From positions 1-34,344 of the forward strand of contig JAHZOA010000007.1 of NCBI GenBank assembly GCA_020028455.1: 34,344 nt of DNA. The letters run 5' to 3'. The DNA is from Armatimonadota bacterium. GTDB lineage: Bacteria > Sysuimicrobiota > Sysuimicrobiia > Sysuimicrobiales > Kaftiobacteriaceae. The stretch's first letter is position 1; each line of letters begins with the position of its first letter. The position numbers and the translations under genes were made by a program. The notes under the pieces were generated by a model, which saw only the letters and a list, made by a program, of their open reading frames with translations, searched no databases and was not told where the DNA came from. Of the stretch, positions 13,857 to 21,686 are shown in pieces.

Positions 13857-14183
13857 ATGTTTGCAGAGCCAGGAAGTCTAGGAATCTCATCGATTGGGCT
13901 TGTGGCCGGCTTCTACTTCGGACGCTTCTTTGACGTCAGGAGGGATCTTGACGTTACGGGCTTTGTTACCCTCATCACTGTGATCGGTATCGGTCCCAGT
14001 GCGTTGGCGCTGATCAGAGCGTACCGTGACCTGAACCTCCTGGATCCCTACGGCGTGGGGCTCCTCATCGGTGTCGTCATCAACCTCATCGTCGCCGTGC
14101 TGCTGAAAGCCATAAAGGCCGCCGAGGGACGGTCTGCTAGCGTCTTCCGGGCTCTCCTCGACATTACAGGGCACTCACCTTAG
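13857..14183 (+). CDS. Small multi-TM membrane protein of unknown function
   Basis: 108 aa with about three hydrophobic segments; codirectional, 22 nt upstream of the protease gene. Confidence 0.6.
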   Translation: MFAEPGSLGISSIGLVAGFYFGRFFDVRRDLDVTGFVTLITVIGIGPSALALIRAYRDLNLLDPYGVGLLIGVVINLIVAVLLKAIKAAEGRSASVFRALLDITGHSP

Positions 14184-14205
14184 GATCGGCCGGGGCCAAG
14201 CCACC

Positions 14206-15204
14206 ATGGCTGAAGATCTCGGAACGGTTCGAGCCGTCCTTCAGGATACCCGGGACGAACTCCTCGCCAAGCCCAATGTTGTAGCCGCGGGCATCGGCTA
14301 TAAAACGGTACTGGAGAAGCAGGACCCAACCCTCAGTATTGTCTGCTCCGTCAAGCAGAAGGTCCGTGCGGAACTGTTGTCACCCCGGGAACGAGTCCCG
14401 CCAGCTATTGCCGGCATCCCAATAGATGTCGTTATCACCGGCCCCATCCATGCCTTTCAAGCGCGGACCGGCCGGTACCGACCGGCTCCCGGTGGAGTCA
14501 GCATAGGGCATAGGAACATCACCGCGGGGACTCTGGGCTGCCTCGTCCAGAAGAACAACCAAACGTTTATCCTCTCCAACAACCACGTGTTGGCGAACAG
14601 CAATGATGCCAGCGTGGGAGACCCGATCCTGCAGCCCGGGTCATTTGATGGCGCCATGTGGCCCGCCGATCACATCGCAGAGCTGACCGAATTCGTGCCG
14701 ATTCACTTCCTAGGCGAGCCGAGCGACTGTTCCTTCGCCGGCGCGATTACTACATTCCTAAACTTTATTGCTAGGACAATCGGAAGCGATACGAGGCTCA
14801 CGGCCGTAAACACCCAGTTGCGTGAAAACCTGGTCGACGCGGCGATCGCTCGCCCGCTGAATGACAATCTCGTCACGGCAGAAATCCTGGAGATTGGGTT
14901 GATCCAGGGGCTAGGCAAGGGGGAACTCGGCGCGGCGATCAAGAAGAGTGGCCGCACCACCGGCCTCACTCAAGGCCAGATTCTCCAGGTCGACGTGACA
15001 GTAGACGTTCAATACGGTCCAAGCCAAGTCGCCCGATTCGCAGACCAGTTACTGGCCGGTCCGATGAGCCAGGGCGGGGACAGCGGCTCGGCAGTCCTCG
15101 ACTCCGGCAACCGCTTGGTTGGTTTATTGTTCGCAGGGAGCCCGAATAGCACTATCATTAATCGCATCGAGCACGTCTTCTCAGTGCTCGCGCTCAGAAT
15201 ATGA
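14206..15204 (+). CDS. Chymotrypsin-like (S1/Nal1-like) serine protease with an N-terminal alpha/beta domain
   Basis: 'FILSNNHVLA' (catalytic His region), 'NLVDAAIARPL' (candidate Asp), 'GPMSQGGDSGSAVLDSGNRLVGLLFAGS' (catalytic Ser). Confidence 0.85.
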   Translation: MAEDLGTVRAVLQDTRDELLAKPNVVAAGIGYKTVLEKQDPTLSIVCSVKQKVRAELLSPRERVPPAIAGIPIDVVITGPIHAFQARTGRYRPAPGGVSIGHRNITAGTLGCLVQKNNQTFILSNNHVLANSNDASVGDPILQPGSFDGAMWPADHIAELTEFVPIHFLGEPSDCSFAGAITTFLNFIARTIGSDTRLTAVNTQLRENLVDAAIARPLNDNLVTAEILEIGLIQGLGKGELGAAIKKSGRTTGLTQGQILQVDVTVDVQYGPSQVARFADQLLAGPMSQGGDSGSAVLDSGNRLVGLLFAGSPNSTIINRIEHVFSVLALRI

Positions 15205-15434
15205 CCCCCACGATTCAAGAAGTGAAAGCTCGGCACGAAGGGCGCCTGATGACCATGCCTGGAGTCGTCTCTGTGGGCCTCGGTCAGAAGCCGGATGGCA
15301 CGCCGGTGATCGTGGTCGGCTTAGATCGAAGACGCCCGGCGACAATGGCTCAACTGCCCCAGATACTTGACGGGTACCCGGTCAGCGTTGAGTTCGTCGG
15401 AGAGATAAGGGCCCAGGAAAAGGGACGCTCCTAA
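15201..15434 (+). CDS. Small protein resembling the N-terminal domain of the adjacent protease
   Basis: ATG overlaps the protease stop (ATGA). 'MPGVVSVGLGQKPDGTPVIVVGLDRRRP..LPQILDGYPVSVEFVGEIRAQ' parallels the protease's 'KPNVVAAGIGYKTVLEKQDPTLSIVCSVKQKV..VPPAIAGIPIDVVITGPIHAF'. Confidence 0.8.
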   Translation: MTPTIQEVKARHEGRLMTMPGVVSVGLGQKPDGTPVIVVGLDRRRPATMAQLPQILDGYPVSVEFVGEIRAQEKGRS

Positions 15435-15437
15435 GCT

Positions 15438-15986
15438 CTACCTGCCCCACAGACCGCGCAGATTCTCCCTCGCTTCTCGCTGGCAGGCTAAGAAAACCTC
15501 AACGTACTTCACGTTCGGAGGGTAGGTAGAAACGAGTGCGTATCCTTCCCGGACGATGAGCATGTTGAATAACGTGCCATCTTCCAGCCAGACGTAAGCG
15601 AGCAATCTCCTGTATCGATCGCGCTTTTGGACGTCGAGCTCAAGAGCAACATCCTGCCCGAGCAAATACCGGCTGGTAAAGTTTGATGACAGGCGGCCAA
15701 GCCCCCTGATGACCTCTTCAGAGACCCCAAATTCCCACGCATCTCTGTCCAGCTTCACGCTTTGATGCACTTCGGGAGTGTCGATTCCGATCAGACGCGT
15801 GCGCTCGCGCCGACGGTCCACCGAGACGATGATAGTGTCACCATCAACCACTCGGGAAACCCTTGCCGGGTAGAGCCCATCTGGAATAGGCGGATTTGCA
15901 CACCGTACCGCGCCGACGGTGGCCGCTGATCCAAACAGGGTCAGCATCGCCAGGGCCACACTTGCCATCAAAAGGAAGCCTTGCAT
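15438..15986 (-). CDS. Secreted thermonuclease family protein (SNase-like)
   Basis: Signal peptide; 'ARVSRVVDGDTIIVSVDRRRERTRLIGIDTPEV' and 'DRYRRLLAYVWLEDGTLFNMLIVREGYA' SNase motifs. Confidence 0.93.
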   Translation of the reverse strand: MQGFLLMASVALAMLTLFGSAATVGAVRCANPPIPDGLYPARVSRVVDGDTIIVSVDRRRERTRLIGIDTPEVHQSVKLDRDAWEFGVSEEVIRGLGRLSSNFTSRYLLGQDVALELDVQKRDRYRRLLAYVWLEDGTLFNMLIVREGYALVSTYPPNVKYVEVFLACQREARENLRGLWGR

Positions 15987-16114
15987 CTTAGCCCTCCTGT
16001 GGTCCCTCAGGTGTTGCATACCCCCACGATGCCTCTGAACTCCTTACGCAAGGATGCGACTGTTCCGAGGGCGAACGACTGGCCAGACTCGGCCTGGTGC
16101 TTCCGGACGTGGGT

Positions 16115-17233
16115 ATGGCGACGGAAACGGCGGCGAAGTGCCCCAATTGCGCCCTGGCCCTGCGGCCGTTGACGCACGCCGGGGTCAAGCTTGACGTCTG
16201 CCTAGAATGTCAGGGAGTGTGGCTGGACGCAGGGGAGTTCGAGCAAGTCGTAGATGCGAAGGCCGGCATCCGGGACCGGCTCAGCAGTGTCTGGACGATG
16301 GGCAAGCGCCGTTGCCCGCGTGGCCACGGTTGGCTGCGCCAGCAGGAGGTGGACGCCGGAATACCTGTCTTGATCGACTTGTGTGCCGAGTGCGGCGGTC
16401 TATGGCTGGACCGCCACGAACTCTTGCGGCTCCAATCCCTGTCGAAGGGCACCTCGGAGGGGCTTTGGCGCGTGGAGGCTCTCGAACAACGCGTCGAGGA
16501 GGCACACCGTCACTGGGACCAGGAGCGGATCGGTGGCGTTGAAGCCAAGAGCAAGATTTCAATTCCGAGCTACTTAATCAATCTGCTCGGGCTCCCGGTC
16601 GAGGTCTATCACCCCGTCAGAAGCAAGCCGCGTGCGACCTATGCCCTCGTCGTCTTGAATGTCGTGATTTTCGTAATGCAGATGCTTTCTCCCGACGGGG
16701 TCATCAGCGAGCTGGGGCTCATCCCTGCCGTCCTCCTACAGGGCGGGGCTCCCTGGACTGTTGTGACGTCCATGTTCCTCCACGGGAACATCGTTCATCT
16801 GATCGGCAACATGTACTTTCTGTCCATCTTTGGTGACAACGTCGAAGATCGGTTAGGCTCTCGACAGTTCCTGGCGCTCTATCTCGTCGGGGGGCTTGTG
16901 GCGAACGTTGTGCATGTGGCCAGCAATTTTGCATCTGACATTCCGGTCATCGGCGCAAGCGGGGCTGTGTCTGCAGTTTTGGGAGCCTACCTCTACTTCT
17001 TCCCCCAGCGTCGCCTGCACATGACGTTCAGCTTCATTCCGCTCCGGATCCGGACGCTGTGGTATCTCGGGATCTATTTGGTGTTGCAGTTCGTCTTTGT
17101 GGCGCTGGGCGCTGAGGGGATCGCCTGGTGGGCGCACATTGGAGGCTTTGGCCTGGGAATCGCGTGGGCAGCCGTCGCGCGTCACCGGATCCGCCAGCGC
17201 ATCTCCGCCCTTGACGCTGCTTTTGGAAAGTAG
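16115..17233 (+). CDS. Rhomboid family intramembrane serine protease fused to two N-terminal zf-TFIIB-type zinc ribbons
   Basis: 'CPNCALALRPLTHAGVKLDVCLECQGVWLDAGEFE' and 'CPRGHG...DLCAECGGLWLDRHEL' ribbons; rhomboid 'GNMYFLSIFGDNVEDRLG', 'GASGAVSAVLGAYL', 'AHIGGFGLGI'. Confidence 0.92.
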   Translation: MATETAAKCPNCALALRPLTHAGVKLDVCLECQGVWLDAGEFEQVVDAKAGIRDRLSSVWTMGKRRCPRGHGWLRQQEVDAGIPVLIDLCAECGGLWLDRHELLRLQSLSKGTSEGLWRVEALEQRVEEAHRHWDQERIGGVEAKSKISIPSYLINLLGLPVEVYHPVRSKPRATYALVVLNVVIFVMQMLSPDGVISELGLIPAVLLQGGAPWTVVTSMFLHGNIVHLIGNMYFLSIFGDNVEDRLGSRQFLALYLVGGLVANVVHVASNFASDIPVIGASGAVSAVLGAYLYFFPQRRLHMTFSFIPLRIRTLWYLGIYLVLQFVFVALGAEGIAWWAHIGGFGLGIAWAAVARHRIRQRISALDAAFGK

Positions 17234-21461: not shown

Positions 21462-21519
21462 CTGGTTGCACTGGCGTTACCTACATTTACCCAATCCGCA
21501 GAGGTGCTCCAAAAACAAC

Positions 21520-21548
21520 GGGCGACCCGGCGGGGCACCAGGTCGCCC
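21520..21548 (-). promoter_or_regulatory. Inverted repeat with U-tract on the minus strand, in the presumed leader of the 20862-21461 gene
   Basis: GGGCGACC / GGTCGCCC 8-bp stem; on the minus strand it is followed by cgttgTTTTTgg. Confidence 0.45.
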
Positions 21549-21686
21549 ACTTCGGCGAGGCAGGCGGCACGGCAGGCCGCCGGTGTGAATTTCCCCCAAG
21601 CGCCCGCTGGTTAAACATGCCTGGATTGAATTTTTCCGGCAGGATTTTGCCCGCGAGGGTTCCAGGTCGCCTCACGGCGAATACGT

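Follow-up and report, generated by a model that had tools for sequence, protein, structure and literature searches.

We identified a conserved two-gene module in which a bacterial NAL1-type serine protease is followed by a gene for a stand-alone paralogue of its own N-terminal domain. The module was found in a window of 34,344 nucleotides, the whole stretch of DNA analysed here, and it recurs across many bacterial phyla with homology between the two domains, conserved adjacency and order, parallel divergence and purifying selection; the trees are consistent with a single old origin. Judged from the sequences, the protease probably has in this small protein a dedicated and so far undescribed controller. 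It may well act in trans, most plausibly as an inhibitor or brake, a reading in which we place middling confidence and whose binding and inhibitory steps draw on homology, gene context and analogy.

The cassette consists of three codirectional ORFs on the forward strand, as a sequence-only reading of the window had described. The first (13857–14183) encodes a 108-residue protein with 2–3 transmembrane (TM) segments, and 22 nt separate it from the protease gene downstream (14206–15204; 332 residues). The protease has an N-terminal domain (residues 1–83; 14206–14454), a homologue of both the small protein and NAL1_N, and a chymotrypsin-fold catalytic domain (residues 96–332; 14491–15201), which aligns structurally with streptogrisin and alpha-lytic protease. 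The chymotrypsin-like motifs seen in the earlier reading carry the catalytic residues His127 (NNHVL; codon 14584–14586), Asp211 (VDAAI; codon 14836–14838) and Ser293 (GDSGS; codon 15082–15084), and this triad is intact in the window protease and invariant across 31 relatives in the family alignment. The start codon of the third gene (15201–15434; 77 residues) overlaps the protease stop codon as ATGA (15201–15204), an arrangement that likely couples the translation of the protease and the small gene. Neither of these two proteins has a predicted signal peptide, and the protease is predicted to be cytoplasmic by a hydropathy rule.

The window protease is a bacterial NAL1-type protease, composed of an N-domain and a catalytic domain, because its family matches the corresponding Pfam models, its profile finds NAL1 and its model matches the NAL1 fold over the whole length. 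Searched on its own, the sequence gave sub-threshold Pfam matches to Trypsin_2, Nal1_C (E 0.01) and NAL1_N (E 0.058). Among the 31 members of the family alignment, NAL1_N was matched by 26 and Nal1_C by 27 (E up to 0.1; best 1e-7 and 1e-9, respectively). The protease profile retrieved rice NARROW LEAF 1 (NAL1) from the PDB at E 1.7e-12, and the AlphaFold model (pLDDT 90) aligned with NAL1 along the full length of the protein (Z 26.2 across 285 residues, 19% identity; Foldseek E 8e-16). The next structural matches, streptogrisins and alpha-lytic protease, covered the catalytic domain only (model residues 96/98–332, Z ~19–21). The family alignment, the PDB profile and the fold place NAL1_N and Nal1_C in one chain, which, with the His-Asp-Ser triad, gives the window protease both hallmarks of NAL1-type proteases.

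The resemblance of the 77-residue protein to the front region of the protease, first seen by eye, was borne out by BLASTP, which aligned it with protease residues 7–83 (E 3e-4, 27% over 77 columns). The HMM–HMM similarity on which the sequence-only reading had staked its proposal was equally present: hhalign matched the small-protein and N-domain profiles with a probability of 96.5 (E 9.3e-10, 72 columns), and with 63 pairs the values were 99.5 and E 3.8e-22. The small ORF is a real gene under purifying selection, as its dN/dS is well under 1: comparison with the sister species gave 0.11, and other pairs mostly fell at 0.11–0.3, with one pair at 0.41 and one estimate saturated. No Pfam or NCBIfam model covers the family of small proteins, a sequence search of the PDB with the stand-alone family gave no matches, and of 27 stand-alone proteins none matched the Inhibitor_I9 propeptide family in Pfam (E up to 1).

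The model of the small protein has the order helix-strand-strand-helix-strand with a pLDDT of 84, falling below 50 at residues 69–77. This low-confidence end includes part of a conserved tail, GEIRAQ in the window (residues 67–72; 15399–15416), which is retained in both domain families: small proteins show it as Gly-x-Ile/Val-Arg/Lys-Ala/Pro, N-domains as Gly/Asp-x-Ile-x-Ala. It forms the exact C-terminal end in 19 of the 24 small proteins of the window-type group and, given the model, may become ordered when the protein binds. In fold the small protein is similar to the NAL1 N-domain (VIA Z up to 6.7) and also to the alpha-lytic pro region (Foldseek probability 0.97–0.99, TM 0.53–0.55, E 0.04–0.12; VIA Z 5.3–5.5, below the level that excludes unrelated folds), and the catalytic domain of the protease is, after NAL1, closest to the alpha-lytic and streptogrisin proteases. 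The small protein could act as a foldase in trans, bringing the protease to its native state as the alpha-lytic pro region does when supplied separately, and then leave. We consider this unlikely, since the fold match is weak, unrelated but common domains of ribosomal proteins and transporters come close to it (Z 4–5), and hhalign comparisons of the stand-alone-protein profile, the N-domain profile and the two combined with 16 alpha-lytic pro regions gave probabilities under 1%, that is, no sequence homology.

The distribution of the pair bears on the same question. We gathered relatives from GTDB contigs, 100 genomes around the window, ~390 further genomes and plasmids, the host names of MAGs being the labels as deposited. 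The adjacency is not confined to this assembly: we found 69 non-redundant stand-alone copies just downstream of, and codirectional with, a NAL1-like protease at distances of −13 to +167 nt, and the window pair shows the same arrangement. The 4-nt start/stop overlap recurs exactly (−4) in 19 of the 69 pairs. The hosts include Gamma-, Beta- and Deltaproteobacteria, Rokubacteria, Gemmatimonadetes, Aminicenantes, Troglogloeales, Actinobacteria and 'Armatimonadetes' bins, and the cultured Rubrobacter radiotolerans also carries the pair (WP_051590075.1 with WP_041339327.1). The dedicated partnership proposed in the sequence-only reading is therefore strongly supported by conserved adjacency and domain homology. 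Exceptions to the order and orientation were one stand-alone copy upstream of the protease (L012) and two divergent copies (L134 and L135); an upstream position of the stand-alone N-domain ORF, immediately before the protease, was noted at L022:426-1286. One copy follows a protease that is greatly extended at its C terminus (G234), and several are at contig ends. A second cassette in the window's own genome (L019; G000:C100:1-840) is cut at the contig start; the C-terminal part of its protease is 81% identical to that of the window, and its small protein looks identical to one from a bin deposited as Nitrospirae (L058). Secreted NAL1-like proteases were also seen, with C-terminal repeats that by eye are PKD-like (L112 and L127, each followed by a stand-alone N-domain gene) or CARDB-like (L109).

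A stand-alone copy occurred without any protease found in four genomes, all drafts (G294, G243, G296 and G124), and about ten genomes have the protease N-domain without a stand-alone copy (e.g., G087, G114, G279, G287, G291, G297, G299 and G349). Because the small protein is rarely found without the protease while the protease often lacks the small protein, an accessory regulator is what one would expect. The cis N-domain was present in all 63 analysed paired proteases, a set for which a protease starting at the N-domain was the condition of entry; among all paired proteases it was missing only in those truncated by the end of a contig or locus. As the paired proteases always keep the cis domain, which is integral in NAL1, the small protein would be an extra domain and not a split-off prodomain. 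The many homologous proteases without a partner and the cis N-domain retained in paired ones also speak against the foldase. Taken with the conserved tail, the asymmetry of presence and the retention of the cis domain point to an accessory regulator, most likely an inhibitor, rather than to an obligate foldase.

The predicted compartments of the partners fit an inhibitor less easily. Applying the hydropathy rule to the 64 pairs with readable N-termini, we predicted both partners to be exported in 26 pairs, mostly with lipobox-like ends, and neither in 13, including that of the window. The small protein alone was predicted to be exported in 19 pairs, mostly proteobacterial with the start-fixing 4-nt overlap. 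A signal on the protease only was predicted by the rule in about 6 pairs, and inspection leaves most of these small proteins without a signal. The loci with export of the small protein only include L032–L048, L055 and L057, contrasting with the protease-only loci L122, L125, L126 and L130. The predicted compartments thus differ in about 25 of the 64 pairs, a mismatch that sits poorly with simple inhibition inside a single compartment and is, as far as the predictions go, the main point that the inhibitor reading does not explain.

The signal peptides and lipoboxes on many of the small partners, together with the multiple chains of the NAL1 entries in the PDB (3 or 6 in most), would suit a structural subunit, joining a protease oligomer through N-domain-type contacts and setting its size, location or substrate access, with the lipoprotein forms tethering the complex. 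This is doubtful, and if anything slightly more so than the foldase, as in the 19 pairs with a signal peptide on the small protein and none on the protease the partners should not meet. A role of the small protein as substrate, decoy or signal, with the domain kept so that the protease recognises it, is more improbable still: co-encoding with the protease, occasional export on its own and a conserved C terminus would agree with such a role, but the whole domain is conserved and not merely a cleavage site, and dN/dS is well under 1.

For the history of the two domains, we computed a tree from 71 columns with 63 sequences of each kind, small proteins and N-domains, in which many forks are unresolved. 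The two labels, small protein and N-domain, need three changes on this tree, against a mean of 42 when shuffled, and a tree constrained to keep the small proteins in one clade is not rejected and comes out likelier than the unconstrained one (p-AU 0.82). One old duplication therefore fits, and the stand-alone copies and the N-domains appear as two groups separated by that ancient event. The sequence-only reading had taken the small protein for a copy of the protease's own N-terminal domain; the homology holds, but the tree indicates an old paralogue, and a recent copy was rejected, given the two separate groups. The distances between small proteins correlate with those between catalytic domains (r 0.76, reached in 0 of 2000 permutations), a correlation that shared vertical descent alone could give. 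A phage origin was rejected, as the search used turned up no viral relatives of either protein in the viral contig set. Distant NAL1-like proteases do occur in an archaeal spiravirus, the Aeropyrum coil-shaped virus (L169:1483-2463), and in an uncultured 484-kb phage (L168); no stand-alone partner was detectable beside either in the stretch examined.

Besides the two genes, no widely shared conserved neighbours were found at the compared loci. The upstream gene had been read as a protein of about three TM segments, of which two are strongly hydrophobic and the third, weaker, is visible only by eye; it has no Pfam match. Homologues with 62–66% identity lie immediately upstream of the cassette only in L008/L056 and L009, and by genome it is in G005 and G007 that the protein is conserved at this position. 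The gene is a lineage-specific neighbour, absent at the cassette of the same-genus sister species (L007/L031; G001), and for that reason we place it outside the conserved module. Its suggested role as anchor or sensor is not supported, the arrangement being limited to three genomes of the window's family. A link of the cassette to defence was rejected, with no PADLOC match. Downstream, an exported staphylococcal-nuclease homologue (15438–16019, reverse strand) converges to 3 nt from the small-gene stop and is followed by a rhomboid protease with N-terminal TFIIB-type zinc ribbons (16097–17233, forward strand). Further along, ARAGORN predicts a 91-nt tRNA-Gly (21517–21607, reverse strand) without an Rfam report at the gathering score. 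On Rhizobium plasmids (L085:2411-4309 and L082:1-3421), one protein joins a NAL1-like protease to a DNA/RNA non-specific endonuclease, and another NAL1-like protease lies beside radical SAM and HEXXH peptide-modification genes.

If the small protein is an inhibitor, it would dock on the protease at or beside the site of the cis N-domain, its C-terminal Gly-x-Ile/Val-Arg/Lys-Ala/Pro tail would lie on the catalytic domain like the tails of propeptides, and translational coupling would set the ratio of protease to small protein. The prodomain premise of the sequence-only reading is uncertain, as the equivalent domain is integral to the solved structure of NAL1, and the propeptide analogy may be wrong since the N-domain is present in the solved structures. 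More broadly, and quite tentatively, the pair could be an ancient and widespread bacterial control module, where a paralogue of the protease's own N-domain switches the NAL1-type enzyme in trans and, in some lineages, does so across a membrane; such switching would mark the N-domain as a regulatory site of the plant NAL1 proteases. NAL1 is an important crop gene, and two small genes, available also in a cultured bacterium, offer a simple system to probe the role of its N-domain.

Separate proteins related to the N-terminal domain of a protease are known chiefly from eukaryotic subtilisins and cathepsins. The principle of a stand-alone propeptide-like regulator is known, whereas the family, the protease type and the bacterial breadth appear to be new: searches of Pfam, NCBIfam and the open literature gave no match for a NAL1-type chymotrypsin-fold protease with a stand-alone N-domain as conserved neighbour in many phyla. 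The alpha-lytic pro regions (2pro, 3pro and 4pro) arrange their helices and strands in a similar way and precede a related catalytic domain, but they share no detectable sequence homology with our family, in which the trans copy is additional to the cis copy; the analogy is suggestive only. The principle has a direct precedent in SUB1-ProM, a stand-alone propeptide-like protein encoded beside Plasmodium subtilisin genes and a potent, selective inhibitor of SUB1 (PMC6993865). It resembles the present case in being a small protein akin in fold to the N-terminal region of a protease and encoded near protease genes (PMC6993865); it differs in belonging to the subtilisin family and fold and in that inhibition was shown there, while here the enzyme is an S1 protease of the NAL1 type and the domain, of putative inhibitory function, is not known as a cleaved propeptide. 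The plant NAL1 papers found, a search that left the structure papers aside, describe no stand-alone N-domain partner. Rice NAL1 itself (PDB 7y77, 8has, 8pmg and 8pmi; Pfam NAL1_N PF25608 and Nal1_C PF25819) has the same layout of N-domain and chymotrypsin fold, while the window protease is bacterial, shorter and paired with a separate gene for a stand-alone N-domain.
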